Part shown: positions 10,152 to 33,793 of the stretch, in pieces
Layout of the letters: each line of letters begins with the position of its first letter
Position numbering within the stretch: position 1 is the stretch's first letter
Assembly: GCA_021782055.1 (NCBI GenBank)
Contig: JAJXVP010000011.1
Location: 1-36,006, forward strand
Direction: 5' to 3'
Origin: a bacterium
Lineage (GTDB): Bacteria > Spirochaetota > Spirochaetia > JABEVK01
Length of the DNA: 36,006 nucleotides
The notes under the pieces: generated by a model
What the model was told of the DNA's origin: nothing
What the model saw: the letters and a program-made list of their open reading frames with translations, nothing else
Database searches by the model: none
Made by a program: the position numbers and the translations under genes

Positions 10152-10163
10152 AGGTCTAATACT

Positions 10164-10169
10164 ACTATA
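10164..10169 (-). promoter_or_regulatory. Candidate -10 box of the carotenoid oxygenase-cyclase operon
   Basis: On the minus strand TATAGT lies 12 nt upstream of the ATG at 10151, with a weak TTGCTT about 15 nt further upstream. There is no Shine-Dalgarno sequence before the ATG. If used, transcription would start only a few bases from the start codon, giving a leaderless or near-leaderless mRNA. Confidence 0.4.
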
Positions 10170-10284
10170 TTGCTCAAGATTCGCAAGCAACTTTTTAGTC
10201 AGGCCGTCAAAATCAGCGTTGAGAGAATCTAAAATCTCGATTCACTAGAGAAAAGTGTCAAAAAGGACGCTGGCTAAAAGTATA

Positions 10285-13935: not shown

Positions 13936-15315
13936 TTAGACGGACAGGTCTTCTAGTACACTGACAGCGTCGGGCGAAAGAATCGCCGCGGAATAGTAAA
14001 CGCTGATCAAATACGAGATCACAGCCTTGTCATCGATGTTCATGAAACGGACATTGGCGCCTGGTTCAATTTCGTCGGGGATGCCGGTCTGATTTAGGCC
14101 TATGACACCTTGGTTGTGTTCGCCGGTACGAAGCGCCAGAATCGACGATGTTTTAGTCTTGGAATCAACAGGAATATATTTGCTGGGTAACAGAGGAATG
14201 CCTCGCCAGGCCGGAACCTGAACCCCGCCCCATTCGAGAGCTTGAGGGTACAGGCCCAGGCGGTTGCACTCATGGCCAAAGGCGGCGATGGTTTTGGGAT
14301 GGGCAATAAGGTACTCTACGCCGCGTTGCCGGGTTACCAGATCATCAAGGTCATTGGGCGTGGGGGGCCGCCCTTGAGCCGACAGGGTTTGATCAAAATC
14401 AGCATTAGAAAGTAGCCCAAAGTCTGCGTTATTGATCAGCTCATACTCTTGGCGTTCCCGTAGCGATTCTAACGTGAGGCGGATCTGTTGTTCCGTTTGA
14501 TTCACGGGCTCATTGTACAAATCCGCTACCCGGGACTGAATCCGCAAAACGGTTTGGGCCACACTCAGCTCATAACGTCGGGGAAAGGTTTCATAGTCCA
14601 TATAGGCCGTAGGGAGAATGTCTTCTCCACCGTGGTCGGTGGCAAAATGGCTTGTTCCCAGGCCTTGCTTACTATAAGGCAGAGAAGCTTTGGGGGACGA
14701 ACCGCCCGAGGAACTTTCTTGCACCTTTTGGCGCAAGCTGGGGTATTCGGTTAACAGATCCTCGAAGGAGGCACGGGAAAGCGACAAAACCACACAGCGC
14801 GTTCTTGCCACGACCGACACGGGCCAAGTTGTGGCGGGTACGGTCAACACTTCAAGACCAAAGTAATCCCCTTTTCGTAGAACGGTTTCTTCCGCCGAGG
14901 GGGTCAGGGTGACCTGGCCTAGAGCGACCACAAAAAAATGGTCGGCCGGAGCTCCCTGGGCCACAATATCCTCTCCCGCTTGAATGCGGCGGATAATAAA
15001 ACGGTCAGAGATTTCGGATAAAATCTCCCTATTATGAAAATCAGACAGAAATGGTAGTTCCGATAGGGTACGAGGAATAATACGAAAATCCTCCCCCGAC
15101 TGATTAACGACCAGTTTGCCTGAGCCCACTTGGTAGTTGAGAACCCGGTTAACCTGGTAAACCCCACCGTGGACCTGAACCCAGGGAAGAACCTTAAGCA
15201 ACCACCGGGAACTTACTCCCGCCAGCTGAGGCAAGGACTTGGTTACGGCCGAAAGCTGTTGGGCTTCGGTTACACCCAAGCCACTCTGAGGACGATTCGA
15301 ATCATAATCGGACAT
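13936..15315 (-). CDS. Family 2B encapsulin shell protein with inserted cyclic-nucleotide-binding-like domain
   Basis: A 459-residue HK97-fold shell protein predicted to self-assemble into a protein nanocompartment. The N-terminal arm ([20 protein letters not shown], residues 36-55) and the shell signature [19 protein letters not shown] (318-336) are typical of Family 2 encapsulins. Residues ~85-197 form an inserted CNB-like domain ([33 protein letters not shown]). In the phosphate-binding cassette the canonical Arg is replaced by Trp164 (TTWPVSV), so nucleotide binding is not assured. A Ser/Gly-rich linker (200-212) leads back into the shell fold. AAAGGAG precedes the ATG. The gene starts 27 nt after the geosmin synthase stop, the known cargo-shell arrangement for terpene cyclases, so the synthase is the probable cargo. 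Confidence 0.88.
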
Positions 15316-15341
15316 AGAGAACTCCTTTCAAGATTATTTTC

Positions 15342-17501
15342 TCAACTCTTACTTTTCCAGGGGACGGACAAATGCGATACAGCATACCGTTGAGTTTGAT
15401 TTGCGGTAGCTTCCTTCCTAGCGCGGTAGCGAGCCACACTTTGGTGCCAAACCACCGAGGACGCCATGAAAGACCTTAAATCCTTGACATACGACAGAAC
15501 CTGCTGGCGATGTTCTTGGCTCAAGTCAAAATCGTCAAATAGAACGGGGAGTTTTGTCGCTTGGATTTCTTCAAATTGGTGTAGGCGTGCTGTGATCAAA
15601 GCATTTAACGAGTCCATGGCCGTTTGCACCGGAACCTCAAGGAAGTTGCTAAGAACGACAACCCAGTTTAACAAGCTTTTTTCTTCTTCCAGTTCTTTTT
15701 TGTACGAAAAAAGATCATTCACCATAACGGCGTGGTCCATCGCACAATCACACAGTTCGCGCATCCCTAGACTTTGATAGAACTCCGTGGGAACTCCTTG
15801 GCCAAAGTCTGCTAACCACGGAAAAATGATAATAAAATAGGCTCCGCCCGTGATGCGCCGCATTTCCATGTAGTCAACGGGGTCAGGGATGCGCCCCAGC
15901 CTTTGCTGGTCCAGCTCCCAAAGCCAACTTTGGTACATTCCTTCAATTCCTTGACGAAAGTCCTCAAGTGTCTTGGTGGGTAAATAGGAACTGGCCTTCT
16001 GCCAAAGATCACTTAAACCTCGTTCAACGGGATTCAAGGGGATTAAAGAGGCCCCCTCCTGTTTCATAAGACCAGAGAGGCGTTCGACAAAAACCCGAGC
16101 TCCAGACGCATCATTTCTCAGGAGGTAAAGTTGGCAAAAATAATCGTCCGAGAACGTTCCTAGCACCGTAAAGCAAGTATCCAGGAGCAATCGTTCCAAC
16201 GCTGAAGTCGGGTGATACGTCGCACAAAAGCGCGCTATATCCGCCGCACAAAAATCCGCGGGTTTCCAAACCGGTTCTCCCAGGTGTTCAGGAAGGGAGT
16301 CAAAGAACCCCATTTGCTGGGCCCAAGCCAAAGACTCGGTTCTCAACTTTTCTAAATGAGGACTAAAGGACACCTCCTGTGGCATTTCTACGGTAGGAAG
16401 ATGGAACGGCTGAACCTTTTGTAGCCAAGGGCTTTTAAATGTTTTGAAACGTTGCAGTCCTAAGGTTGCAGGGGAAGGCAACCACGCCTTCTTGGGTTGA
16501 CCCGTTTGACCGGCTTGACCATACCGGCTGGTCTTAACGTGCCATTCATGGGCTCCCGACTGCCAATCCTGCAAGCCTTTAACAAACGAGAGAACGGCCC
16601 TTTGTTCGTCCTCGGTCACGTTATACTTGAGGAACACCTCGGGGAGTTCGGTGATAACTGCATGCTCGAACTGTTGCAGGCGTGAGGTCAAAAGCTCATT
16701 CACCAACGACATCGCTTGCTCTGCCGGGACCTTGAGGAAGCGCTCAAAGACCAACACAGCGTTGGTGACTTCTCCTTGCACGAGAACTTCGCGATGGTAC
16801 GAAAAAATATCATTGCGGAGGTGGACGGCGTCAGCAAAACAATACCGGAGACTTTGAAGGGTTCGAGAGGCCATCACTCGTTCGGGAACGTTCGTCGGCA
16901 AGGTATGTTCCACCAGGTCAGCGGACCAAAGCGCAGCGCCTACCTGGCGACGCATCGCGATGTACTCAGCAGGATTGGCCACGCGATGGGCTTGCCTGTT
17001 GTCAAATTCCCACAAAAAAGCGTCAAGTAAGCGCTTGGTATCTTCAACGATTCGGCGTCTCCAGGCGAGGGGCTTAACGATGGCCGTTCTGAGCCATAAA
17101 TTCTGGAGAGCCTTTAGGGTGGGAGAATCGGCGGGGCTGGTGAATTCAAGGTCCAGGGGCAGGGAGCCTACAATACCTTTTAAGTATTCGCGAGCCTCAG
17201 CTCGCGTAGCCGGTGTCGGTTCAGGAAACCTCTTAATAAAATAGTCATCCACATAAAACGCCCAGACATTCCAGTCGGTCATTAGCTCAAGTTCTGTCAC
17301 TGACGCTTCTGGGTGGATCCTTGAACAAAAATCCGCATAATCGTGCCTGTCGAAGCTCTTTTCTTCCCAGACGCTAAAGTCGTTGGGTTCGGCAGAAAGA
17401 ATTCCGACTTCGAAGGCCCAGGCTTTAGCGTGGGTTCGCGCGGTCGCACAGTGGGGATTTTTCCTTGCGGGCCAAGGAACGTAAAAATCAGGTAACTTCA
17501 T
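15342..17501 (-). CDS. geoA: Geosmin synthase (two-domain terpene cyclase)
   Basis: A 719-residue bifunctional sesquiterpene cyclase, about the usual length of geosmin synthases. The N-terminal domain converts farnesyl diphosphate to germacradienol and the C-terminal domain is needed for geosmin formation (family knowledge). The N-domain carries metal motif DDYF (85-88) and NSE motif NDIFSYHRE (230-238). The C-domain carries DDYF (452-455) and NDLFSYKKE (595-603). Stretches such as LPDFYVPWPARKNPH, QDWQSGAHEWH and DPVDYMEMRR parallel the Streptomyces coelicolor enzyme as I recall it. A Gln/Gly/Lys/Pro-rich interdomain linker (~328-372) could hold an encapsulation signal. There is no Shine-Dalgarno sequence before the ATG, while AT-rich -10-like boxes end 3-10 nt upstream, so the mRNA may be leaderless. 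It is the first gene of an operon with the encapsulin. Confidence 0.92.
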   Translation of the reverse strand: MKLPDFYVPWPARKNPHCATARTHAKAWAFEVGILSAEPNDFSVWEEKSFDRHDYADFCSRIHPEASVTELELMTDWNVWAFYVDDYFIKRFPEPTPATRAEAREYLKGIVGSLPLDLEFTSPADSPTLKALQNLWLRTAIVKPLAWRRRIVEDTKRLLDAFLWEFDNRQAHRVANPAEYIAMRRQVGAALWSADLVEHTLPTNVPERVMASRTLQSLRYCFADAVHLRNDIFSYHREVLVQGEVTNAVLVFERFLKVPAEQAMSLVNELLTSRLQQFEHAVITELPEVFLKYNVTEDEQRAVLSFVKGLQDWQSGAHEWHVKTSRYGQAGQTGQPKKAWLPSPATLGLQRFKTFKSPWLQKVQPFHLPTVEMPQEVSFSPHLEKLRTESLAWAQQMGFFDSLPEHLGEPVWKPADFCAADIARFCATYHPTSALERLLLDTCFTVLGTFSDDYFCQLYLLRNDASGARVFVERLSGLMKQEGASLIPLNPVERGLSDLWQKASSYLPTKTLEDFRQGIEGMYQSWLWELDQQRLGRIPDPVDYMEMRRITGGAYFIIIFPWLADFGQGVPTEFYQSLGMRELCDCAMDHAVMVNDLFSYKKELEEEKSLLNWVVVLSNFLEVPVQTAMDSLNALITARLHQFEEIQATKLPVLFDDFDLSQEHRQQVLSYVKDLRSFMASSVVWHQSVARYRARKEATANQTQRYAVSHLSVPWKSKS

Positions 17502-17602: not shown

Positions 17603-20191
17603 ATGAGCCAAGAACAGACACTGGACCAGTTAGAACAGGCCCGAAGGCTGGCGTTTTCTCGAGCGTTAACGAAGTATTTGCTTCCTGTCTCGTTGGCCAA
17701 CTTTGTGATTACCCTCGTTTTTTGGTTGATCTTTCCCGCCTATTCGCAATTCATCATTTATGGGTTAGCGCTTTTACCGATTGCGGGCTTAGCCTTACTT
17801 CTTGAGGTTTTTATCCAAAAGGCGTGGTTAGACCAGTGGACCGTTTTACTCTCAGTTTACTTGGCTGTGGTCAGCTCCACGCTTTCTATCGTCATCCCCG
17901 AAATCCAGATTGCGGCCATGCTCACCATTCCCTTGATTTACACAGCGTTGGGCAGCCTCTTGAAAAAGCGCAACATTCTGCACCTGATGTTGATCATTGC
18001 CGGAGGAACGATTCTCACGGTTCTGAACCAGAGGGGATTGCTTCCGTTCCATTTCACCCAGCTCCCCCCGACCCTTAGCCTGCTGTTAACCCTTGTGATT
18101 GTGCTGTTTGCTATCGTCATTGTCGGTGTTTACTACATGCATTTTTTAAGGGACCAAGATCGGCTTTTTCGCAACCTTCAAAAAGCCCAGGTGGAAAGTG
18201 ACCTTGCCAAACAGGACGCTGAGGCCGCCAGCAACGCCAAAACCACTTTTCTGGCGACGATGAGCCACGAAATCCGGACACCGATGAACGGTGTCATCGG
18301 CATGACCATGCTTCTGCTCGATACCGATTTAACCCCCGCCCAAAGGGAGTACGCCTTAACCATACGCAACAGTGGCGAAGCCCTCTTGTCCATCATCAAT
18401 GACATCCTAGATTTCTCAAAAATTGAATCGGGTAAGGTTGAGCTGGAGTTGCGTCCCTTCCCGTTGCGTGAGGCTCTAGAAGAAGCGATCAGTTTGTTGG
18501 CGAGCAAGGCTGCTGAAAAATCCATAGAATTAACCTGTCTCATCGAAGAGGGGGTTCCCCGTGCCATTCTTAACGACGAGGGACGTCTTAGGCAAATCCT
18601 TTTGAATCTCTTGGGCAACAGTCTCAAGTTTACCGAGAAAGGTTTCATCTCTGTTCACGTCAGTGTTCAGGACTACACAAACGAGGCCGGCTACACCTTA
18701 AAATTCTCTGTCAAAGACACGGGCATTGGAATCCCTCCCGAAAGAATCCCCCTTCTTTTTCAATCGTTTAGGCAAGCCGATAGCTCGATCAGCCGACGCT
18801 TTGGCGGTACAGGCCTGGGGCTGGCTATTAGTCAACGGCTGACCGAAATTCTCGGGGGAAAGATCTGGGTGGAAAGCACAGGTATACCAGGCGAGGGCAG
18901 CGATTTCATCTTCACCATTCAAACGCAAAGTTCCTCTATGCCCACCCGAGAGTTCCTTCAGCATGCCCATATCAACCTCAAAGGCAAAAAAGTTTTGGTG
19001 GTTGACGACCGAGAAACCAATCTCAAAGTTTTAGAACAACAGTTTACCTCTTGGGGAATGAAGCCCCACCTTTTTAACAATCCTCTCGTTGCCTACGAAA
19101 ACGTCGTTAACGGAGAAGCCTATGACATAGGGTTTGTCGATTATGATATGCCCGAGCTGAATGGCATTGAGCTTTGCCATAAAATCCAAAGTCTTTCCGC
19201 TTCGCCCCCGTTTCCCTTAGTTCTTTTAAGCTCCAGCAATCCCGAAGCTGTTCCCGATTGGGATCCTCAACTCCGCTTTCTTTTGAAACCCGTGAGATCG
19301 TCTCAGCTTTACAATTCGGTCATTGATATCTTTGCCCTTGCCAAGCCCGAAGCGCGTCAACACTCCGGCGAGTCCGCCGTCTTTGATAGTACCATGGCCA
19401 GCCGCCTGCCTCTAAGGATTCTTCTGGCCGAGGACAATCCCACCAATAAAAAGCTGGCACTCCTTACCCTCGAGCGACTCGGCTATTTAGCCGACTCTGC
19501 GGGAAACGGCATCGAAGTTCTTCAGGCTTTGGAACGTCAACCGTACGACCTGATTTTGATGGATATGCAAATGCCCGAAATGGATGGTCTAGAAGCCACG
19601 CGCCAAATTTGCCAAAAATGGAGCCTTGATGAACGCCCACGCATTGTGGCGATGACGGCCAACGCCTCCAAAAGTGATTTTGAAGCTTGCATGGCCGCCG
19701 GCATGAACGATTTTATCGCCAAACCTATCCGGCTTCAAGAATTGATTGACGCCTTAAATAAGTGTTCCCCCACAACTCTCGTCCCCAATGCAACTGGCGA
19801 TGAAACAGAGACCACCGAAAACCCTGCCAATGTTACAATTTTCAACCCCCAGGTTTTAGATAAATTGAAAGACCTGATTGGTGATAAGCCCGAAAACTTA
19901 CTGGTTCTTGTTGATAGTTTTGTTACAGAAACACCTAAACTTTTAAAGGACTTAGCTAAAGCCGTCCAAGAACGAAATCAGGAGCTTTTTCAAAGATCCG
20001 CCCACACCCTCAAGTCGACAGCCAGAGACTTTGGAGCGTTGGAACTATCCGCTCTAGGACAAACGATGGAAGAGGATGCTAAACAAGCCCGCTTTGAGAA
20101 CTCGACCGCTTTGTTGCAACAAGCCCAGAAAAGTTTTGACACCGCCCAAGCCCTGCTCCTAAACTATATCCAAGGAGCTACCCATGTCTAA
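17603..20191 (+). CDS. Hybrid sensor histidine kinase (TM-HisKA-HATPase-REC-REC-Hpt)
   Basis: An 862-residue BarA-like tripartite kinase. Residues ~25-183 contain about six hydrophobic membrane segments with no large periplasmic loop. HisKA follows with phospho-acceptor His222 ([11 protein letters not shown]). HATPase_c shows N339, DTGIGIP (372-378) and [10 protein letters not shown] (401-410). Receiver 1 (~462-580) has Asp513 in FVDYDMP. Receiver 2 (~603-720) has Asp654 in [11 protein letters not shown] and Lys707. The Hpt domain at the C-terminus has His801 (SAHTLKS). Phosphate can thus relay H-D-H within the protein and on to the receiver of the next gene, which overlaps this one by 8 bp. 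It is therefore the likely activator or repressor of that cyclase. It is divergent from geoA, sharing a 101-bp intergenic region. The sensed signal is unknown. Confidence 0.93.
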
Positions 20192-21245
20192 CGAGCGGGG
20201 ACACATTCTCGTTGTTGATGATTTTCTCCCTAACCGTTTAAAAATGTCGCTAAGCTTAACCCAGCAGGGTCACACCGTTGAGATTGCTGAATGTGGTACC
20301 AAAGCTCTCGAAATGCTGGTTCGTGGAGCCTTTGACATCGTTCTGTTAGATATCGTGATGCCCGAAATGGATGGGTACGAGGTTTTGCGGCGCATGAAAG
20401 CGGATGCCAACTTGCGCAATATCCCTGTCATTTTAGTTTCGGCTCATGACGAGATTGAGAAAATCGTCCAAGGCATCGAGATGGGTGCTGAAGATTACTT
20501 ACCTAAATCGTTCGACCCTGTACTTTTGAAAGCTCGTATTGGGGCGTGCCTTGAGAAAAAAGGCCTTCGTGATCAAGAACAACTTTATTTACGACAAATC
20601 CAACTCGAAAGGGAAAAGTCAGAGCGGCTCTTGCGCAATATTTTGCCCGACTCGATTGCGGACCGCCTCAAAGAAGCCGAAAACATCATTGCCGACAATG
20701 TCGAAGATGTCAGCGTCATGTTTATTGATATTGTTGACTCGGTGCCTCTTTCAGCTCACATGCCCGCTGTTGACCTGGTTCAAATGCTGAATCAAATCTT
20801 TTCGAGTTTTGATTCCTTAGCTGAAAAGTACCACCTTGAAAAAATCAAAACGAGCGGGGATTCCTACATGGTTGTCGGAGGTTTACCCCTCGCCCAGGAA
20901 GGACATTTAGAGGCCGTGGCCAACATGGCCTTAGACATTATCCAGGAATCCCACCAATTTGCGCGCTACGACGGAAGCCCTATGCAGTTTCGCATCGGAA
21001 TCAACTGCGGGCCGGTCATTGCGGGCGTGATAGGAACCAAAAAGTTCGCCTACGATCTGTGGGGCGAAACGGTCAACGTGGCCAGCCGCATGGAATCCCT
21101 TAGTCTGCCCCACTCGATCCAGGTTACCCAAGAGGTGTATGACCGCCTCAACCACCACTACCTTTTAGAACCTCGAGGTACCATTGACGTCAAGGGCAAA
21201 GGAAACATGCCCACCTTTTTGCTCAAGGGCAAAAGAAATCCGTAA
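20184..21245 (+). CDS. Response regulator fused to class III adenylyl cyclase
   Basis: A 353-residue output protein. The receiver domain (residues 7-125) has Asp12/Asp13, phospho-acceptor Asp56 ([11 protein letters not shown]) and Lys108. A helical linker with the cyclase-transducer-like [13 protein letters not shown] (151-163) precedes the cyclase domain (~172-350). Metal-binding Asp182 and Asp226, the EKIKT lysines, Asp291 (YDLWGET), Asn298 and Arg302 are all present, which predicts active cAMP synthesis rather than cGMP. The ATG lies within the end of the upstream kinase gene (8-bp overlap) after CAAGGAG, so the pair is translationally coupled. It should be phosphorylated by the upstream Hpt domain. 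Its cyclase domain resembles that of the 1531-residue cyclase at 3.4-8.0 kb. Confidence 0.93.
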
Positions 21246-21583: not shown

Positions 21584-22841
21584 AAGCCGGAAAGATCGTC
21601 ATTCCGCTTTTTACCGTGTTCGACAGGAAATCTGCTTCGACCACGCCCGAGAGAATACGGCAGTTTCTTTCGATGGTCGTTCCAGGGGGGATGTGTGTCG
21701 CTTTTCCAACGACATTAAGACCGGTGTGAAGGATGTGGGGTACCTCTCGGTTTTCTGGAGAGTCGCTTCCACACCCAATCCGGCACGAGGCACCGACGAC
21801 AACTTCTTTATCGAGAATGGTCCGGTCCAAGAGACTTCCCCGTTCAACGACGGTCCGGTCAAAAATGATGGAGTTTCTCACGATGGCGCCTTCCTCTACA
21901 ACGACGTTGGGCGAAAGCACTGAGTTCTCGACAGTCCCGTGGATCAAGCAACCTCCTGAGACGATACTGCGAACGACAGTTCCGGTTTGGCTGACTTTTG
22001 CCGGAGGGAGCTGATGACTCGTCGTGTGCACTGCAAAACGGTTACTACGGTCGTAAAGATCAAGTGGCGGAGAAGGTTGAAGCAGTTCCATGTTTGCGTG
22101 CCAATATTCCTCGAGAGTCCCAACATCGCGCCAGTATCCGCCATAGGGGTAGGCAAAAGCTCGATCAGTTTCGATGATGCGTGGAATAACGTCCAGACCA
22201 AAATCAATCGCTAGACGCTGACGGCATACCTCTTGCAAAACCTGACGCAAAAAAGAGACGCGAAAGACGTAGACCCCCATCGAGGCTAAATTCGACTTTG
22301 GACGTTCCGGTTTTTCTTCAAAGTCTCGAATTCTGCAGTCTTCATCGATCGAAAGAATCCCGTAATTCTTGGCGGTTTCGTTTTCAACGGGAATCGCGGC
22401 AAGGGTCAGGTCAGCATCAGAGGCTTCGTGGGCCAGAAGCATAGGCCGGTAGTCCATTCCGTAAACATGATCACCACAAAGAACCAGGACATTCTCGGCG
22501 TCCTGCGACGTCAAAAAATCAAAGTTCTGGAAGACCGCTTGCGCCGTTCCGCTAACCCATTTTTTTTGACCGGCGGGATGGGGAGTAAGAATGTCAACAC
22601 TGTTGTCATCCTTGTCAAAGTTCCACGGTCGGCCCACGCCGATGTGCTGACTAATCGTACGGTGAAAATGCTGAGCCAGCACGGCGACGTTTGTTACCCC
22701 AGAGTTGGCACAGTTGCTGAGTGTAAAATCGATAATGCGGTATTGGCCTCCGAAGGGGACAGCGGGCTTGGCCCGATGTTCGGTCAAAATATCGAGTCTG
22801 GTTCCCGCACCGCCTGCCAGAATCATGCCAACGGTCTTCAT
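21570..22841 (-). CDS. glgC: Glucose-1-phosphate adenylyltransferase (ADP-glucose pyrophosphorylase)
   Basis: A 423-residue enzyme that makes ADP-glucose from glucose-1-phosphate and ATP, the committed step of bacterial glycogen synthesis. The N-terminal nucleotidyltransferase domain starts [20 protein letters not shown] and contains [32 protein letters not shown] and DFEEKPERP. The C-terminal part (~290-423) is the left-handed beta-helix with repeated hexapeptides such as [15 protein letters not shown]. The ATG at 22841 is chosen because AGGAG lies just upstream and the family begins here; an in-frame extension to 22901 is unlikely. No other glg gene is in the window. It is divergent from the ATP synthase operon, with about 155 bp between start codons. 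Confidence 0.95.
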
Positions 22842-22925
22842 CGGTGATCTCCTGTTTTGGAGCCCTTTTTCACAGTATAACCCGAGAAAAATCCCGGTCA
22901 AGACGAAGGCGAGTGTGACCTAAAT

Positions 22926-22955
22926 TTGACAGACGGCCCGAGGTGGGACGATACT
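22926..22955 (+). promoter_or_regulatory. Candidate promoter of the ATP synthase operon
   Basis: TTGACA (22926-22931) and GATACT (22950-22955) are separated by 18 nt, about 40 bp before the proposed atpB start. The -35 is perfect and the -10 is 4/6. It is the only good promoter-like site upstream of atpB. Confidence 0.45.
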
Positions 22956-22996
22956 ATAAAAAGGCTCGGTTCGAAAGCCTTTCAACGAGGTGGACC

Positions 22997-23788
22997 GTGT
23001 TACTTGTTGGTGGACCTTCTTCCGATGTGTCCTCGACTCTTCTAGAACACATCCTCGACAACACAAAGTGGAACCTCCTCCCTGGACTAGTGCCGTTGCA
23101 ATTGCCCTTCGGCCTGAGCGTACATGTTCTAATGCTACTCTTCGCGGTAGTCCTAATCATCGGAGTGCTGTGGCTTGCTGTTCGCCACCAGTCGTTGAAG
23201 CCCCGAGGTTGGTCCCTAGCTGTGGAAATTGTTGTTGTTTTTGTCAGGGACGAGCTGGTTGTTCCCATCCTAGGTAAAGAACGAGGCCGTCGTTGGCTTC
23301 CCTACTTTTTGACCCTGTTTTTGTTCATCTTCGTTCTTAACGTGCTGGGGCTGGTGCCGTTGTTTCGCTCGGCCACGGGTAATCTTGCGGTCACTTCGGC
23401 ACTCGCGGCTCTGACACTCGTGTTGATTTTGGCGAGCAGTTTCGGACGTCTAGGCGTGGGGGGCTTCTTTCGCAGTTTAGTTCCGTTGGGTATCCCTTTC
23501 GGGGTGGGCCTTTTTGTCGCCGTTCTGGAGTTTGGCGGGCTGTTCTTGAGGGGGGCAGTGCTCAGCCTGCGGTTGTTTGCCAACCTTTTTGCCGGTCACC
23601 TAGCCATTCTTTGTTTTTTGGTGCTGGCGATTGTCGTCAACCCAGCGATGGTGGTTTTTTCGCTGCCGTTTGCGTTGTTCACTTCGCTACTCGAGGTGTT
23701 GATCTCGTTAATTCAAGCGTTGGTATTCACGCTGTTGGGATGTCTGTTTCTCCAGATGGCGAGTTCGTCCCATGAAGTCTCAGCGTGA
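22997..23788 (+). CDS. atpB: ATP synthase F0 subunit a
   Basis: A 263-residue membrane subunit forming the proton half-channels next to the c-ring. Five or six hydrophobic segments are visible. The helix with the essential arginine reads LSLRLFANLFAGH, followed by the usual LLEVLISLIQALVFTLL segment. The GTG at 22997, preceded by GAGGTGG, is preferred to an upstream in-frame start at 22943 because the added N-terminus is not family-like. It is the first gene of the operon, and no atpI precedes it. It is followed 15 nt later by atpE. Confidence 0.93.
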   Translation: MLLVGGPSSDVSSTLLEHILDNTKWNLLPGLVPLQLPFGLSVHVLMLLFAVVLIIGVLWLAVRHQSLKPRGWSLAVEIVVVFVRDELVVPILGKERGRRWLPYFLTLFLFIFVLNVLGLVPLFRSATGNLAVTSALAALTLVLILASSFGRLGVGGFFRSLVPLGIPFGVGLFVAVLEFGGLFLRGAVLSLRLFANLFAGHLAILCFLVLAIVVNPAMVVFSLPFALFTSLLEVLISLIQALVFTLLGCLFLQMASSSHEVSA

Positions 23789-23803
23789 TCAAGGAGGTAG
23801 CTT

Positions 23804-24034
23804 ATGGACACGACGCAATTGGCTCATGCCCTCGCCGTCATCGGGGCCGCTCTCGCGGCAGTGGGGGGCTGTATCGGCATCGGCTTGATCGGTGCCAAAG
23901 CGATGGAAGCCATAGCCCGGCAGCCCGAAGAAAAAAAGGATATTCGGACCAACATGGTACTGATGGCGGCCCTGATTGAGGGGCTGGCCTTTTTTTCGGC
24001 GATTATCGCGCTATTGGTCGTCTTTGGAAAATAG
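23804..24034 (+). CDS. atpE: ATP synthase F0 subunit c
   Basis: A 76-residue hairpin of two transmembrane helices around the polar loop ARQPEEKKDIR. The carboxylate that carries the coupling ion is the Glu in ALIEGLAFFS. Sodium-binding c subunits have Gln in the first helix and Ser/Thr after the Glu. Here these positions are Ile (GIGLIGAKA) and Gly, so proton coupling is inferred. A strong ribosome-binding site (AAGGAGG) precedes the ATG, fitting the high c-subunit copy number. Confidence 0.96.
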   Translation: MDTTQLAHALAVIGAALAAVGGCIGIGLIGAKAMEAIARQPEEKKDIRTNMVLMAALIEGLAFFSAIIALLVVFGK

Positions 24035-24057
24035 GGACCGGTCCCAGGAGAAAAATC

Positions 24058-24540
24058 ATGGATCTTTTTCGTCTCGATCCCGGCCTAGCGATTTGGACGT
24101 GGATCACGTTTGGTCTTCTGTTTTTCATCGTGGCAAAAGTGGTGTTGCCACCGCTTCTTCGCAATCTAGAAGAACGCGAGCGTTTGATAGCTAAATCCGT
24201 TGACGACGCTAGCGTCCTCGAAGAACGCCTGCAAGCCATTGACCGTGAAAAAGAAGAAGTGCTTGCCTCGGCTCGCGCAGAGGGCGAAGACATGCTTCGC
24301 CAAGCGCGCGAAGAGGCCGCATCGTTGCGGCAGAGTTTGCTTGACGAGGCCGTGCGCGAAGTCGAGGCCGTGTCCGCGCAGGGACGAGTCCGAGTCGAAG
24401 AGGAGCGTAGAGCGGCACTTGACGCCTTGCGCGACGAGCTGGCGGACTTTGCTCTTGCCTGCGCTGGCGCCATTGTCGGAACGGCTTTGGTTGGCGACAA
24501 GGAACGCGCGTGGGTGCGAGACCAGGTACGGCATTTATGA
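24058..24540 (+). CDS. atpF: ATP synthase F0 subunit b
   Basis: A 160-residue peripheral stalk subunit. It has one N-terminal membrane helix (IWTWITFGLLFFIVAKVVLP, residues 12-31) followed by a long charged, Ala/Glu/Arg-rich coiled coil. AGGAG lies just before the ATG. The stop overlaps the start of atpH (ATGA). Only one b-type gene is seen, so the stalk should be a homodimer. Confidence 0.94.
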   Translation: MDLFRLDPGLAIWTWITFGLLFFIVAKVVLPPLLRNLEERERLIAKSVDDASVLEERLQAIDREKEEVLASARAEGEDMLRQAREEAASLRQSLLDEAVREVEAVSAQGRVRVEEERRAALDALRDELADFALACAGAIVGTALVGDKERAWVRDQVRHL

Positions 24541-25079
24541 GTCCTCGTCCGATCGCTCAACACTACGCCCTGGCTCTGTTAGAAGCCGCCCGAGACACCA
24601 GGAAAGTTTCCGAAGTAGAGCAGGACATGAAGGTTCTGTCTCGCCTGTTAGCCGAAGTTCCCGGAGTGTCGACCTGGTGTCGGCAGGGTCGTGTTCACCA
24701 CAAGACAGGACTCACTTTTGTCCGCACGGTGTTTCTCCCCTACGTCGGAGCATTGACAGCAAGGGCTTTGCTCCTAGCCGCCGACTATCGGCTCGAGGTT
24801 ATTCCCGAGCTCCCTTCGGCTTTCGAAACCGTCATAGGCGAAGGCGAATTCGTTTGTATAAAACTTGAAGCCGCCCACGTACCTGATACCGAACTTGTTC
24901 AGCAGGTGAAAGAGACCCTAGAAGCCAGAACGGGAAAACCCGCTATCGTGAAGGTCACCATCGTTCCCGATCTGCTGGCTGGGTTCCGCGTCTTTTGGAA
25001 CGACAGGATGATCGACCTTTCAGCGAGGGGCCGATGGCAAGCCCTGCGCACGCGGCTAAAAACAGGAGGCCTACGTTGA
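24537..25079 (+). CDS. atpH: ATP synthase F1 subunit delta
   Basis: A 180-residue stalk subunit (OSCP type) linking F1 to subunit b. The N-terminal helical bundle (IAQHYALALLEAARDT) and the C-terminal signature (KVTIVPDLLAGFRVFWNDRM followed by IDLSARGRWQALR) are typical. The ATG at 24537 overlaps the atpF stop by 4 bp and is preferred to an in-frame GTG at 24510. The stop codon overlaps the TTG start of atpA. Confidence 0.93.
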   Translation: MSPRPIAQHYALALLEAARDTRKVSEVEQDMKVLSRLLAEVPGVSTWCRQGRVHHKTGLTFVRTVFLPYVGALTARALLLAADYRLEVIPELPSAFETVIGEGEFVCIKLEAAHVPDTELVQQVKETLEARTGKPAIVKVTIVPDLLAGFRVFWNDRMIDLSARGRWQALRTRLKTGGLR

Positions 25080-27241
25080 GAGACGAGGTTCGGCCCGCAG
25101 AAATTTTAGAGCGGCTAAAGCGCACGATCGCGGGGTTTGCCCCCGACCAGACAGAGGTCGAGGTCGGCCAAGTTGTCCAGTCAGGCGACGGAATCGCTCG
25201 GGTGTGGGGTTTGCGCGAAGTTAGGACTGGTGAAATCGTCGAAGTGGAGGTGGACGATGAAACTCCGGTACACGGCCTGGTGATGAATCTCGAACAAGAC
25301 ACCGTAGGTGTTGTTCTGTTCGCGGGTGCTGAGAGGGTCAAGGAAGGAGCCCTTGTTCGGCGTACAAAACGCATGCTCGAAGTTCCTGTCGGGGAAACCC
25401 TGGTGGGAAGGGTTGTCGACCCGCTGGGAAATCCCCTCGATGGCAAAGGGCCGCTCTTCCCGACCAGCTTCCGTGCCGTCGAAGCGAAAGCTCCCGGCAT
25501 CGTCGACCGCGAAAATGTTGGCCAACCACTTCAGACCGGCATCAAGGCGATCGACGCCATGATTCCTATCGGATGTGGACAACGTGAACTAATCATCGGC
25601 GACCGACGGACAGGAAAAACCACCCTTGCCGTCGACACAATTTTGAACCAGAGTCGCGTCTTTGGTGGACCCGACCAGGTGCAGTGTTTTTATGTAGCCA
25701 TCGGACAGAAGTTATCGTCGGTAGTCCGTTTAGTCGAAATCCTTGATGCCCGGGGAGCAATGGCATATACGACTGTTGTTGCCGCCACAGCCTCGGACCC
25801 AGCATCGCTACTGTATTTGGCTCCGTACTCAGCGACAGCTATGGCGGAATTTTACCGTGACAGTGGTTGTCACGCCCTTGTGGTCTTTGACGATTTAACC
25901 AAACACGCTCAGGCGTATCGGGAACTGTCTCTGCTGATGCGTCGTTCGCCCGGACGCGAAGCCTTTCCCGGAGACATTTTTTATGTGCATTCGCGGCTTT
26001 TGGAACGGGCAGCCAAGTTGAACGCGGCCCATGGCGGAGGGTCGCTCACGGCGCTCCCCATCGTCGAGACCCAAGAGGGCGACGTCGCGGCCTACATCCC
26101 TACCAATGTGATCTCGATCACCGACGGTCAGATCTTTCTCGTCGCGAACCTTTTCAACGCGGGGTTACGGCCCGCATTGAATGTTGGTATTTCGGTGTCC
26201 CGTGTCGGAGGCGAGGCCCAGGTCAAAGCGATGAAACAGGTCGCCAGTTCTTTACGCATCGACTTGGCCCAATTTCGGGAGCTGGCTGCCTTCTTGCAGT
26301 TTTCGTCCGAGCTAGATTCCACGACACGGCGCCACCTCGACCGAGGCGAACGGCTGACAGAGATTTTAAAACAAGGGCAATACTCCCCGCTGGATGCTTA
26401 CCAGCAGGTGATGATTCTTCGTGCCGGTGTTTCAGGTCGATTGGATCGCTACCCCGTAGACAAACTGAGTCTTTACCAGGAGCGGCTTTTTGCTTACCTC
26501 GACGGGCCGGGCGCACCCTTTATGGCTCGTCTGCGCGAGGCGGGACAGTTCGACGCGCAGCTCGACCGTGAAGCCGAAAACGTATTTGTCGCTTTCGAAG
26601 CGACTCTGGGGCCCGAAGCCGTCTCGCACGGTGTCGATGCCGGTTATGCCATGAATTTGGCAATGGCTCTAGGCCAGAATACAGCCCGCCCCGAGGCTTT
26701 ACAATTGGCCCAAAAGTTGACAACTCGTGAGTTGGCCAGACCCTCGCTTGCAAAGGAACTCGAAGACATTGTGAATGGTCGCGACCTTCTGGATCAGGAT
26801 CGTCTGCAAAAGCTCTTTCAGGCGTGTCCCATCCTTGACGTCGAGGTTGCTGATCGCCTAGAGGTGTTCCATGAGGCATCGCGCTATCTCGCGGAAAGGT
26901 TGGGTGTCTCAGACCAGGTGATCTTTGACGACCTGATGGCACGCGAGGCTGCTCGATCGTCAGCCGTTCCACCGGGATTTGCGATTCCGTCAACGATCGC
27001 CGGGAGAAAGGGAGCCTTTGAGCTTGTCATTCTTCGCTCGCGGCAGGGCCTTGAGTTCCCGAGTGTACCCAGCGTTCACCTGCTATTTTTCTTAGCAGGG
27101 GCCTCCGACCAGTGGCATTTCACCTTGGTGGTCATTTCCGCGTTGGCGGCACTTTTCACCGACCAGACGTTTCAAAAGAGTGGCCCGGAGGCGTCTATCG
27201 AGGACCTTCGCCGGTTGATCTTAAACCGGGGCACAAAGTGA
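25076..27241 (+). CDS. atpA: ATP synthase F1 subunit alpha fused to a degenerate PTS EIIA domain
   Basis: 721 residues against about 500-510 for normal alpha. The TTG start at 25076 is supported by AGGAGG at 25064-25069 and the 4-bp overlap with atpH. Residues 1 to ~513 form a complete alpha subunit: P-loop GDRRTGKT, Walker B-like ALVVFDD, arginine-finger motif SVSRVGGEAQ, and the family's C-terminal helices. A helical linker (~514-595) follows. Residues ~596-715 match the PTS EIIA type 2 (fructose/nitrogen, PtsN-like) fold: RYLAERLGVSDQVIFDDLMA, AREAARSSAVPPGFAIPS, VHLLFFLAGASDQWHFTLVV. In active EIIA the motif is AIPH with a phospho-accepting His; here it is AIPS (Ser639), so PEP-dependent phosphorylation on His cannot occur. 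The fold is otherwise intact, so a regulatory or binding role is inferred. The reading frame is continuous with no stop between the domains. Confidence 0.95.
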   Translation: MRDEVRPAEILERLKRTIAGFAPDQTEVEVGQVVQSGDGIARVWGLREVRTGEIVEVEVDDETPVHGLVMNLEQDTVGVVLFAGAERVKEGALVRRTKRMLEVPVGETLVGRVVDPLGNPLDGKGPLFPTSFRAVEAKAPGIVDRENVGQPLQTGIKAIDAMIPIGCGQRELIIGDRRTGKTTLAVDTILNQSRVFGGPDQVQCFYVAIGQKLSSVVRLVEILDARGAMAYTTVVAATASDPASLLYLAPYSATAMAEFYRDSGCHALVVFDDLTKHAQAYRELSLLMRRSPGREAFPGDIFYVHSRLLERAAKLNAAHGGGSLTALPIVETQEGDVAAYIPTNVISITDGQIFLVANLFNAGLRPALNVGISVSRVGGEAQVKAMKQVASSLRIDLAQFRELAAFLQFSSELDSTTRRHLDRGERLTEILKQGQYSPLDAYQQVMILRAGVSGRLDRYPVDKLSLYQERLFAYLDGPGAPFMARLREAGQFDAQLDREAENVFVAFEATLGPEAVSHGVDAGYAMNLAMALGQNTARPEALQLAQKLTTRELARPSLAKELEDIVNGRDLLDQDRLQKLFQACPILDVEVADRLEVFHEASRYLAERLGVSDQVIFDDLMAREAARSSAVPPGFAIPSTIAGRKGAFELVILRSRQGLEFPSVPSVHLLFFLAGASDQWHFTLVVISALAALFTDQTFQKSGPEASIEDLRRLILNRGTK

Positions 27242-27250
27242 GGTTAACGC

Positions 27251-29729
<2,479 letters not shown>

Positions 29730-29807
29730 CAATATAGATTGCGGGGTTGAGGCTGAAAGAAAGTTCCTGTTGGGACAAAGACGAGCCACGTGGACAAGGA
29801 GGAAACC

Positions 29808-32495
29808 ATGGGTGAAGTCACGAAGTATGTGTTCTCTTTTGGGGCAGGACGAGCCGAGGGCTCGGGCGAGATGAAAGCTCTGTTAGGCGGAAAAGGTGCC
29901 GGCCTCGCCCAGATGACAAACATCGGCCTGCCCGTACCCGCCGGGTTCACCATTACAACGGAGGTCTGCGATCTTTTCTATAAGAACGGCCGACAATACC
30001 CGGCATCTCTTTATGAAGAGGTCGCCGAACATCTGGCAAAACTCGAGGCTACGACGGGCAAGACGTTAGGTGATCCTAAAAATCCGCTGTTAGTTTCGGT
30101 GAGGTCAGGAGCCCCCGTGTCGATGCCGGGAATGATGGAGACCATTCTGAACCTCGGGCTTAATGACGCAACGGTCGAAGGTCTGGCCGCCTTGACGGGC
30201 AACCGGCGTTTCGCTCTGGATGCTTATCGCCGGTTCATCAGCATGTACGGCTCCACGGCTAAGGGTGTTCCTTCGGAAGCGTTCGACAAGATTTTTCAAG
30301 ACATCAAAAATAGCCGGACGCGCCACCGTCTGGGCGCCGAAGCGGGCAAGAGAATCCAAGACATCCAAGTCGACGAAAAGGAACTCGACGAGCTTTTACC
30401 TCGTTTTAAGAAGCTGTACCGTCAATACACCGGCGAGGAATTTCCACAGGAACCCCAGGTCCAGTTGTGGGGAGCTATCACGGCGGTTTTCGAAAGCTGG
30501 TCGGCACCCAAGGCCGTTACCTACCGCGAGGTCGAAAAGATCACCGGCGTGGCAGGAACGGCCGTGAGCGTTGTCCAGATGGTTTTCGGAAACCTGGCCG
30601 AACGCTCGGGAACTGGCGTTTGTTTCACCCGCGACCCTAACCGTGGCGAAAATGTCTTTTACGGTGACTATTTGCCGAACGCACAGGGCGAAGACGTCGT
30701 TGCGGGCATTCGAACACCAATGACCCTCTGCGAGTTCGAGCGAACGCAACCCGATTCTTATCGCCAATTACTTGAAGTTCGTCGAAGGCTGGAAGCCCAC
30801 TACCGAGACATGCAGGATCTAGAATTCACGGTCGAAGAAGGCAAACTCTATATGCTTCAGTGCCGGACCGGAAAACGTTCACCCTTGGCGGCTTTTCAGA
30901 TTGCTGTCGATATGGTCAAGGAAGGCCTGATCAGCAAGGCCGAAGCCGTGTTACGCATTCGGGATAAAGACGTCGAGGGACTGTTTTACCCTGTTATCGC
31001 CCCGTCGGAACAAGACAAACTGAAGGACGCCTGGCTGGCACGTGGTATCGATGCTGTTCCTGGCGCCGCAGCGGGTAAAGTCGCCTTCACCGCCAAGGAT
31101 GCCGAACAGTGGGCGGCACGCGGCGAAGCGGTCATCCTTGTCAGAAAAGAAACCAGCCCCGAAGACGTTGGCGGTATGCACTCTGCCAAGGGCATTTTGA
31201 CGGCGACGGGAGGCAAGACCAGTCACGCTGCGGTAGTTGCCCGAGGCTGGGGTAAGTGTTGCATTGTCGGTTGTGAGGCGCTGGAGGTTGACTACGAGGA
31301 CAAACTCTTTCATGTGGGCAATCTCGTCGTCCACGAGGGCGAAGAGGTCACGCTCAACGGTTCGACTGGCGACGTTTACCGAGGCAGTCTGGCTCTAGCG
31401 CGATCTGAGCCTTCCGAAGCGTTCAAGACGCTGATGAGCTGGGCTGATGCCTTTCGTAGCTTGGAGGTTTGGGCCAACGTTGACACCCCGTACGACGCTG
31501 TCAAAGCCAGGGAACTCGGGGCCCAGGGCGTTGGGCTTTGCCGAACGGAGCACATGTTTTTCGATTCCGAAGAGAGAATCCTTGCCTTGCGACGGATGAT
31601 CGTCGCAACGACGCCGCAGGAGCGGCAGATAGCACTCGATGCTCTGATGCCCCTGCAAAAAGAGGATTTTGTCGGGATTTTTCGGGCAATGGAGGGACTT
31701 CCTGTCACCATTCGCCTCCTTGACCCGCCGTTGCACGAGTTCGTGCCACATGACGAGGAAGGGCAGAGGGGGCTGGCACAGGCAACTGGTAAGAGTTTTG
31801 AAGCCATCCGCCTGCACGTCGAACGTCTCCACGAACAAAACCCGATGCTGGGGCACCGGGGCTGTCGACTTTGCATTACCTTTCCCGAGATTCTCGACAT
31901 GCAGGTCAAAGCCATCATTGAAGCGGCTTTGGTTTGCGTTCGGCACGATATCGAGGTATTCCCCGAGATTATGCATCCTTTGGTGATCGATCGGCGTGAA
32001 TTCGCCTTCTTGGAGGCGCGTACACGCAAGGTGGCGGACGAACTGATCAAAGAATCGGGGCTCGATCTTCGCTACGAGGTCGGCTGTATGATCGAGACTC
32101 CTCGGGCCGCCTTGCTTGCAGACGGTCTTGCCGAAAAGGCTGAATTCTTTTCGTTTGGAACCAACGATCTAACCCAGATGACTCTGGGGATTTCTCGAGA
32201 CGATGCCGGTAGGTTCCTTCCCGATTATGTTGACGAACACCGGGCGGCGATCTTTCGCCAAGATCCGTTCTACACGCTCGATCAAGAAGGTGTCGGAAAA
32301 CTGATGGCCATGGCTATCGATCAAGGCCGCCGCGTGCGTCCACACCTCAAAGTCGGAATCTGTGGGGAGCATGGCGGTGAGCTAGAGTCGGTTAAGTTCT
32401 GTCACAGCTTAGCGATGAACTACGTCTCGTGTTCGCCCTACCGTGTACCGATTGCCAGGCTTGCGGCCGGACAGGCCGCCATCCCCCACGTTTGA
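29808..32495 (+). CDS. ppdK: Pyruvate, phosphate dikinase
   Basis: An 895-residue enzyme interconverting ATP + phosphate + pyruvate and AMP + pyrophosphate + PEP. The ATG at 29808 is chosen because AAGGAGG lies 5 nt upstream; the in-frame GTG at 29790 lies before that site. The N-terminal nucleotide-binding domain starts YVFSFGAGRAEG, GGKGAGLAQM. The swivelling phosphohistidine domain has His473 in GGKTSHAAVVARG. The C-terminal PEP/pyruvate TIM barrel has GCRLCITFPEI, FFSFGTNDLTQMTLGISRDD and catalytic Cys852 in GICGEHGGE. It is full length. It lies 78 bp after atpC on the same strand, possibly in one transcript, linking pyrophosphate/ATP/PEP metabolism to the ATP synthase locus. Confidence 0.96.
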   Translation: MGEVTKYVFSFGAGRAEGSGEMKALLGGKGAGLAQMTNIGLPVPAGFTITTEVCDLFYKNGRQYPASLYEEVAEHLAKLEATTGKTLGDPKNPLLVSVRSGAPVSMPGMMETILNLGLNDATVEGLAALTGNRRFALDAYRRFISMYGSTAKGVPSEAFDKIFQDIKNSRTRHRLGAEAGKRIQDIQVDEKELDELLPRFKKLYRQYTGEEFPQEPQVQLWGAITAVFESWSAPKAVTYREVEKITGVAGTAVSVVQMVFGNLAERSGTGVCFTRDPNRGENVFYGDYLPNAQGEDVVAGIRTPMTLCEFERTQPDSYRQLLEVRRRLEAHYRDMQDLEFTVEEGKLYMLQCRTGKRSPLAAFQIAVDMVKEGLISKAEAVLRIRDKDVEGLFYPVIAPSEQDKLKDAWLARGIDAVPGAAAGKVAFTAKDAEQWAARGEAVILVRKETSPEDVGGMHSAKGILTATGGKTSHAAVVARGWGKCCIVGCEALEVDYEDKLFHVGNLVVHEGEEVTLNGSTGDVYRGSLALARSEPSEAFKTLMSWADAFRSLEVWANVDTPYDAVKARELGAQGVGLCRTEHMFFDSEERILALRRMIVATTPQERQIALDALMPLQKEDFVGIFRAMEGLPVTIRLLDPPLHEFVPHDEEGQRGLAQATGKSFEAIRLHVERLHEQNPMLGHRGCRLCITFPEILDMQVKAIIEAALVCVRHDIEVFPEIMHPLVIDRREFAFLEARTRKVADELIKESGLDLRYEVGCMIETPRAALLADGLAEKAEFFSFGTNDLTQMTLGISRDDAGRFLPDYVDEHRAAIFRQDPFYTLDQEGVGKLMAMAIDQGRRVRPHLKVGICGEHGGELESVKFCHSLAMNYVSCSPYRVPIARLAAGQAAIPHV

Positions 32496-32500
32496 ATCCC

Positions 32501-32532
32501 TAAGGAGGAAAATAATTTCGTGATGAGGTGAA
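32501..32532 (+). promoter_or_regulatory. Orphan ribosome-binding site after ppdK
   Basis: AAGGAGGA lies 5 nt after the ppdK stop, but the reading frame that follows (GTG ATG AGG TGA) closes after three codons. It looks like the leader of a lost downstream gene, or of a very short peptide. The following 32-bp stretch before the next gene has no other signal. Confidence 0.4.
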
Positions 32533-32563
32533 ACTGACGGCACTTCGGTTGGTTTGATAAGTT

Positions 32564-33793
32564 GTGGCAAGAAGAATGATGGTGGCACCAAGAAAAGTCG
32601 GGGTGGTTTTTCTGGTATTTATGACTCTGTTGGCTAGTGCGAAGGCCCAGGCAACAGAAAATACCGCGATCGCCGTTTCTGTCGTGTCACCCAATTCTTC
32701 ACGGGGAATCATGAACGATGACTCTGTTACAAGGGTCTTGATTGTCGCTATTCAAAATGGCACTAGCGAAGGAACGGGAACTTTAATTAAAGGGTATTCT
32801 GCTTGGAGGGGGAGGTTTCTGGTTACTGCCACGGGGCCAACCGACTTTTGGGCGTATGCGTACAATGCCAGTAATGCGGTGGAATGGATAGGGTTAACCT
32901 CGGGTTTTACAGTTCACAGCAGAGAAATGAACGCTGTTTCGATCAGCATGAGTCCGCTGCCTTTTGAGACCTCTCCTAATATCGGGACGATGGTCCCTGT
33001 AGCTGGGGGAACGTTCACCCTGCGAGCCGACGGGCCGAATATGACCGAAAGTACCTTTTACATGAGCGCTAACTTGATAACCCGAGAGCAGTTTTGGTCG
33101 GTTATGGGAGCTGACCCCAGTGTCACAGCAGTCTCAAGAGGTACATCAGACCCCGTACAAAATGTTAACTGGTATATGGCTATTACGTTTTGCAATAAGC
33201 TGAGTTTGCTTGAGGGGTTGACGCCTGTTTACTCCGTTTCGACGGTATCGAACTGGTCTAGCCTGCGCTTTTCGCACATTCCGAGGTATAATAATTTGAA
33301 CTGGGATGCTGCGACAATCAATGACGGGGCCAATGGCTACCGCCTACCCACCGAAATGCAGTATCTGTGGGCGGCGATGGGCGGCATGAGCGACGGGCTT
33401 TCGGGTGACCTTGTCCAAGGAATAAACGTTCTCGGTTTTAAAAAGGGCTATGCGGGAAGCGACGAGGCTGATGGGGGGCAATCGAACATCGGGAATTTTG
33501 CTTGGTATTACTCCAATGATAACATTTCAACCCAGCCCGTTGGCATGAAAAACGCCAACGAGTTAGGGATTTTTGACCTGAGTGGGAATGTCCTGGAATG
33601 GGAATGGGACTGGATAGGAGTTTACCCAACCACACCAACCACCGATTATCAGGGCGCGGCTTCGGGGTTGTACCGTATGGCCCAAGGCGGCAGTTGGGAT
33701 TTCGTTGCATCCTACTGTACCATTGCCGGCCGCCTCATCATCGCCCCCTACTACCAGGGGAGTATCACCGGTTTCCGGGTGGTACGCCAATAA
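32564..33793 (+). CDS. Secreted SUMF1/FGE-sulfatase-domain protein
   Basis: 409 residues. An N-terminal signal peptide (VGVVFLVFMTLLASAKAQA) is followed by a short beta-rich region (~35-140) and an SUMF1-like domain (~145-409). Typical family stretches are MVPVAGGTFTL, DPVQNVNWYMAITFCNKLS, GYRLPTEMQYLWAA, QPVGMKNANELGIFDLSGNV and GFRVVRQ at the end. The paired catalytic cysteines of true formylglycine-generating enzymes are not evident, so sulfatase activation is not claimed. Such SUMF1 proteins are abundant in spirochaetes. The GTG start at 32564 is uncertain; ATGs at 32576 and 32579 are alternatives and all have weak ribosome-binding sites. Confidence 0.85.
   Translation: MARRMMVAPRKVGVVFLVFMTLLASAKAQATENTAIAVSVVSPNSSRGIMNDDSVTRVLIVAIQNGTSEGTGTLIKGYSAWRGRFLVTATGPTDFWAYAYNASNAVEWIGLTSGFTVHSREMNAVSISMSPLPFETSPNIGTMVPVAGGTFTLRADGPNMTESTFYMSANLITREQFWSVMGADPSVTAVSRGTSDPVQNVNWYMAITFCNKLSLLEGLTPVYSVSTVSNWSSLRFSHIPRYNNLNWDAATINDGANGYRLPTEMQYLWAAMGGMSDGLSGDLVQGINVLGFKKGYAGSDEADGGQSNIGNFAWYYSNDNISTQPVGMKNANELGIFDLSGNVLEWEWDWIGVYPTTPTTDYQGAASGLYRMAQGGSWDFVASYCTIAGRLIIAPYYQGSITGFRVVRQ

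Follow-up and report, generated by a model that had tools for sequence, protein, structure and literature searches.

The fused alpha gene and its operon

The window analysed here, a 36,006-nucleotide stretch of contig JAJXVP010000011.1 from a bacterium of the Spirochaetia, encodes an F-type ATP synthase in which the alpha subunit of F1 (AtpA) continues into a C-terminal domain of the EIIA type, as in the phosphotransferase system (PTS) protein EIIA-Ntr (PtsN). The fusion occupies a single open frame of 721 residues on the forward strand (25076-27241), with no break between the alpha core and the tail on inspection of the open reading frame. The frame begins with TTG at 25076, an AGGAGG lies 6 nt upstream, and the homologues begin at the same place. 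The alpha core (residues 1-509; 25076-26602) matches TIGR00962, the curated equivalog model of AtpA, across residues 6-509 with 714.2 bits against a cutoff of 484.45, and the tail therefore follows a complete alpha subunit. The core has an intact VSRVGG motif with Arg376, which we assume to have its customary role and which is invariant in an alignment of 20 fused proteins. Its P-loop, GDRRTGKT (25598-25621), has arginine or lysine in 18 of 18 fused alphas at a position where glutamine is usual; this was rejected as a special trait, since the same position in unfused spirochaete alphas is occupied by Q, K, G, S or R.

Beyond the core lies a helical linker (residues 510-574; 26603-26797), part of a module held in common with APC permeases, the helices of which are predicted with low confidence. 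The remainder is an EIIA-Ntr-type domain (residues 575-716; 26798-27223), assigned to EIIA type 2 by a match to the Pfam model PTS_EIIA_2 (residues 586-701; 33.5 bits, cutoff 27) and by a structure prediction of the tail that gives the EIIA fold with high confidence. A model of the full-length protein was too poor for use (predicted local distance difference test, pLDDT, 61). An earlier note, made from the letters of this DNA alone, had described a full-length alpha, a helical linker and an EIIA fold in one frame and had proposed a check of the fold; the domain models and the predicted structure agree with it.

No gene of the operon is missing and the gene order is the usual one, in keeping with the assignment of the fused gene to AtpA, with all genes on the forward strand: atpB (subunit a, 22943-23788; PF00119, 154.5 bits), atpE (c, 23804-24034; TIGR01260, 61 bits), atpF (b, 24058-24540; PF00430, 74.4 bits), atpH (delta, 24510-25079; PF00213, 72 bits), the alpha-EIIA gene, atpG (gamma, 266 aa, 27251-28051; PF00231, 199 bits), atpD (beta, 28057-29472; TIGR01039, 772.8 bits) and atpC (epsilon, 86 aa, 29469-29729; PF02823, 34.5 bits over residues 6-80). 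Nine related loci (L001, L002, L003, L004, L009, L011, L012, L014 and L015) share the identical order. The ion site of subunit c reads LIEGLAFF, which we take to lack the usual Na+ ligands, and protons are therefore the likely coupling ion. PPDK (29790) was considered as a conserved partner of the operon through phosphoenolpyruvate (PEP) and rejected, the next gene being different in the four loci checked (L001, L002, L009, L013). Scans of the window with Rfam at the gathering threshold and for tRNA genes gave no matches, and promoter-like matches within 22700-33000 were at chance (4 against 3.5 expected); terminator-like matches in the same interval (18 against 12.8 expected, sd 3.6) served no conclusion.

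The window epsilon consists of the beta-sandwich domain only, with no match to the long-helix domain model, and epsilons of 82-96 aa without C-terminal helices were found in all 15 unbroken cases among the 16 fused operons with an epsilon in view. That count leaves aside loci with no epsilon in view, one cut by a contig end (L114) and L006 (5288-5461), where the frame stops within the beta-sandwich domain after 57 aa through a frame break or a sequence error in that metagenome-assembled genome (MAG). Epsilon was short (82-106 aa) in four of 31 unfused operons and 126-146 aa long in the other 27. The Pfam beta-sandwich was present in every epsilon (16/16 fused, 31/31 unfused), the long-helix domain in 0/16 against 5/31. 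The window gamma lacks an in-frame segment after residue 190 (27821) that is present in the 51 others compared (15 fused, 36 unfused); by rough numbering the deletion would lie near the mycobacterial catch loop. As a trait unique to the lineage it holds just within these 52 gammas, mitochondrial gammas in the PDB being also short (270-278 aa).

Loss of the relay histidines

Alignment to PtsN places Ser639 (codon TCA, 26990-26992) at the position of the active, phospho-accepting histidine, presumably numbered H73 in PtsN, and Thr683 (codon ACC, 27122-27124) at that of the second histidine (PtsN H120), while Arg623, Arg654 and His681 are kept. With serine at the H73 position, the window domain is, judged by these residues, EIIA-like by fold and not a working phosphocarrier. 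The earlier note had reported the loss of the phospho-histidine at Ser639, and the alignment extends this to the second relay histidine.

A conserved family of fused proteins

The fusion is not unique to the window. A first protein search with the window tail returned three relatives besides itself, and a scan of genome contigs gave 18 loci, comprising 14 full-length fusions, a partial alpha with tail from which the N-terminal part of alpha is missing (L010), two tails followed by gamma and cut by the contig end (L013, L016), and a Vibrio PTS-permease-like frame with EIIA (L018), an unrelated PTS protein that was excluded from the fused counts. Both histidines are kept in all 17 loci other than L018. 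A second protein search, with a histidine-bearing tail, listed 99 proteins, of which 96 were fused (95 new and P0003), two were amino-acid permeases and one (P0103) was without the domain. Adding P0001, P0004 and P0005 to the 96 gives a set of 99 fused proteins, some of which come from the same genomes as loci L001-L017. Position 639 in this set is histidine in 97 and serine in two, the window and P0003; position 683 is histidine in 96, threonine in two and truncated in one. The non-phosphorylatable state is thus derived, and the ancestral role of the domain, to judge from these residues, was probably phosphorylation by the PTS. Genes for EI (PF05524) and HPr (PF00381) are present in 16 of 16 fusion genomes of relatives. 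The earlier note had called for a survey of longer AtpA proteins and of residue 639, and had proposed a non-phosphorylatable docking or sensory domain; the survey found relatives in number. The note was thus right in anatomy and its proposal is supported in part: it may hold for the window, where the histidine is lost, but the window is an exception in a family that keeps it. The AtpA-EIIA fusion is confirmed as real and conserved, with a predicted EIIA fold.

Named carriers of the fusion include Spirochaeta cellobiosiphila (P0070), of which strain DSM 17781 is recorded in the NCBI taxonomy and the fused alpha should have 729 residues, and one fused protein bears the name Candidatus Omnitrophota. 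Within the phylum of one carrier (G001), an F-type alpha (E 1e-100) was found in 133 of 392 genomes, four of the 133 with the tail, one of these in a partial frame. In the order of G005, which probably lies outside that phylum since only G005 and G009 of its genomes recurred from the earlier sets, such an alpha was present in 9 of 100 genomes, four with the tail; in the order of G002, a fusion-level match was found in G002 alone among 46 genomes. G001 carries a back-to-back pair of divergent F-ATPase operons (locus L001, JAIFLN010000059.1), one with a fused and one with an unfused alpha, and a V/A-type ATPase D subunit is also present in 18 of 18 fusion genomes searched. The earlier note knew of no described F1 subunit with such a fusion, and none appeared among the open-access papers that the literature searches listed, subscription papers and preprints lying outside their scope.

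Phylogeny and origin of the EIIA module

In a tree of alpha cores (18 fused, 39 unfused; L010, L013, L016, L121 and L122 left out and rows dropped when their core fell short of 430 residues), all fused proteins fall on one side of a branch with support 100/100. The window, with its alpha core in this clade and a linker and EIIA tail behind it, belongs to the AtpA-EIIA family. It is sister to P0003 (100/100), and the pair adjoins the histidine-bearing P0004 and L001, so the loss of the histidines is secondary. The tree includes rows from MAGs that their submitters named Kiritimatiellota, Lentisphaeria and Fibrobacter, so lateral transfer is likely.

In the order of G002, the best other matches fall in the C-terminal regions of APC amino-acid permeases; they begin at query position 10-38 and take in much of the linker. 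In a tree of 54 EIIA domains, 20 fused and nine permease domains form one group (100/100) apart from the 25 others, and the nine permease domains are a single clade (99/88) nested among the fused ones. The fused EIIA domains are accordingly not on one side of a branch (two changes, forced by starred branches), whereas the alpha cores form one group. With the permease clade in this position, and with midpoint rooting that puts the root near the long window/P0003 branch, the module may have passed from permeases to alpha or the other way. Four Na+/H+ exchangers examined from the order of G002 likewise carry EIIA domains at their C-terminal end. Further, in four of five contigs a PtsN-like EIIA gene lies downstream of the gene for the V/A-type ATPase D subunit (L129:687-2271, L130:8006-8953, L131:1188-2772, L132:5544-7261), and in 3/3 tested (L129, L130, L132) the two genes flank one for a universal stress protein; the five were chosen because D subunit and EIIA matches shared one contig. 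From the permeases, the exchangers and the V-type neighbours, coupling of EIIA to ion-moving machines is recurrent in these bacteria.

Other genes in the window

A few kilobases away from the atp operon that holds the fused alpha, on the reverse strand (13936-17501), a 459-aa SrpI-like encapsulin shell protein with a cyclic-nucleotide-binding domain adjoins a 719-aa terpene synthase; pairs of encapsulin and terpene synthase are known. The encapsulin gene is located between genes for two proteins with adenylate/guanylate cyclase domains (3410-8005, reverse; 20184-21245, forward), one of them also matching AAA, GAF and, weakly, kinase models and the other bearing a receiver domain. The window also encodes a 738-aa protein of the RPE65 family, presumably a carotenoid oxygenase (7974-10190, reverse), and a phage-type integrase (636-1859, forward), and may border a mobile element.

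Interpretation

The reading favoured here, to which we give slightly better than even chances, is that of a PTS-driven switch in the family at large that has become fixed in the window branch. The operon product would be an F-ATPase with three alpha subunits, and each would hold its EIIA-Ntr-type domain on the side of F1 that faces the membrane, in the vicinity of gamma and epsilon. Across the family at large, a chain from PEP through EI and HPr would phosphorylate EIIA at the conserved histidine, the phosphorylation state would alter contact with the rotor or stalk, and the glycolytic energy state, in the form of PEP, would gate the enzyme, most likely its hydrolysis of ATP. The domain may stand in as regulator for the C-terminal domain that epsilon lacks, in a manner resembling the mycobacterial alpha tail with its hook on gamma. 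In the window lineage, with both relay histidines gone, it would be held in a phosphate-independent state and act permanently in a structural or ligand-binding capacity. In favour of this reading are the histidines kept by nearly all relatives, the EI and HPr genes of those relatives, the short epsilons of the fused operons, the recurrence of EIIA on transporters and beside V-type ATPase genes, the precedents of the mycobacterial hook and of zeta, and a domain that stays full length in both histidine-less species. A more detailed version is put forward tentatively, its chances falling somewhat short of even: HPr~P acting on up to three alpha-borne EIIA domains would set the motor in place of ATP sensing by the epsilon tail, and the window lineage would have frozen the switch together with the facing gamma deletion, so that the domain would now act as a lasting lock or sense some other signal. 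PtsN of Escherichia coli, when unphosphorylated, exerts its effect on K+ transport proteins by binding to them directly, although models are not in full agreement (PMC13104625, in its account of PtsN), so an EIIA without its histidine can still bind a partner.

The earlier note had placed the domain near the b/delta stalk or on the membrane side. The delta subunit sits at the opposite end of F1 from the alpha C-terminus, which removes delta from that placement. The membrane-facing position agrees with the alpha C-terminus of Mycobacterium smegmatis, as given in the description of its extension (PMC8617483).

Several observations weigh against this reading. The full-length model being poor, the place of EIIA on F1 is argued from precedent, and both phosphorylation and the activity of a fused alpha are predictions from sequence. 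Helices in the unfused epsilons were judged by length, the long-helix model matching so few of them. The four unfused operons with a short epsilon weaken an exclusive tie of EIIA gain to loss of the epsilon tail; two of them (L079, L080) belong to the group joining next to the fused clade, so the epsilon tail may have been lost before the fusion arose and from unrelated causes. Since the fused clade has one origin, the association may reflect a single event. The window and P0003 are 91% identical in the core, 86% in the linker and 70% in EIIA, and EIIA diverges by more than 2 SD over the core trend in 7 of the 18 comparisons of the window with histidine-bearing relatives and in 14 of the 18 of P0003, the trend being set by histidine-bearing pairs that are not independent. 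Such fast change on the window/P0003 branch fits decay as well as new use. Further, of 294 conserved core positions the two keep 275 and 276, with 15 losses in common.

Decay is the substance of the most serious rival, to which we assign a clearly smaller chance: the EIIA of the window lineage would be a relic that has lost its relay and is not yet removed. Besides the lost histidines and the rapid change, greatest in P0003, it can draw on the long common branch of the pair in the EIIA tree and on the 41 EIIA positions kept in at least 16 of 18 histidine-bearing proteins, of which the window retains 34 and P0003 27, with six losses common to both that include the two histidines. In a leave-one-out control, histidine-bearing members keep 0.91-1.00 of these positions, except the distant L121 (0.81; 29/36) and L122 (0.74; 28/38), and by that measure the window is no worse than these two, which still have both histidines. 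Against decay, the domain has stayed full length in an intact frame in two species with 70% identity in EIIA, its fold is predicted with high confidence, and the divergence of the linker is close to that expected in all comparisons but the one with L121; one stop codon would readily remove a useless C-terminal tail.

An improbable alternative is that even in histidine-bearing members the module works by docking or dimerization and not through phosphorylation, comparable to the EIIA-fold cytoplasmic domains of SLC4 anion exchangers, and ties ATP synthases to one another or to a partner. Histidine at both relay positions in nearly all members is hard to explain without phosphotransfer, and the linker helices are of low confidence. 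That the window fusion, seen on a single contig, arose in assembly or sequencing has a negligible chance and was rejected, as independent records carry the fusion: there are 98 further fused proteins, five on contigs over 2 Mb, 14 full-length fusions lie in named genome records, and P0003 has the same serine and threonine.

The F1 alpha subunit is among the most conserved proteins known. If the favoured PTS-switch reading is true, a PTS domain covalently in F1 would connect the ATP synthase directly, at the molecular level, with glycolytic PEP. The presence of the fusion in a species with a deposited strain makes this testable, and the natural histidine-less branch offers a ready-made comparison. 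The direction in which F-ATPases run is known to be controlled by epsilon, zeta, IF1 or, in mycobacteria, the alpha hook, in the accounts of these regulators given in PMC9317440 and PMC8617483.

Comparison with known systems

Among the closest known systems, the APC amino-acid permeases with a C-terminal EIIA share the linker and EIIA module and differ in that the host protein is a membrane transporter. Free-standing EIIA-Ntr (e.g., PDB 2a0j and 1a6j) differs from the window domain, which is fused to F1 alpha and has both relay histidines replaced. The cytoplasmic domain of SLC4 proteins (Band 3, AE2, BTR1) likewise places an EIIA-like fold on an ion-transport protein, as seen in a comparison with the predicted fold; these are human proteins with the domain N-terminal, and the likeness drawn here is one of fold. 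The M. smegmatis alpha subunit also has a C-terminal extension. It touches gamma in its lower globular part and hooks one of its loops, and a role in tethering gamma and blocking hydrolysis has been proposed for it (PMC8617483, in its passages on this element); the extension spans residues 520-548 only, without EIIA, and is likened to the fusion by analogy. In alpha-proteobacteria, a truncated epsilon goes with the substitute inhibitor zeta (PMC9317440, in its treatment of these subunits), a newer regulator where epsilon has lost its inhibitory function, as the EIIA domain may be here; zeta, likened by description, differs from alpha-EIIA in being a separate subunit.
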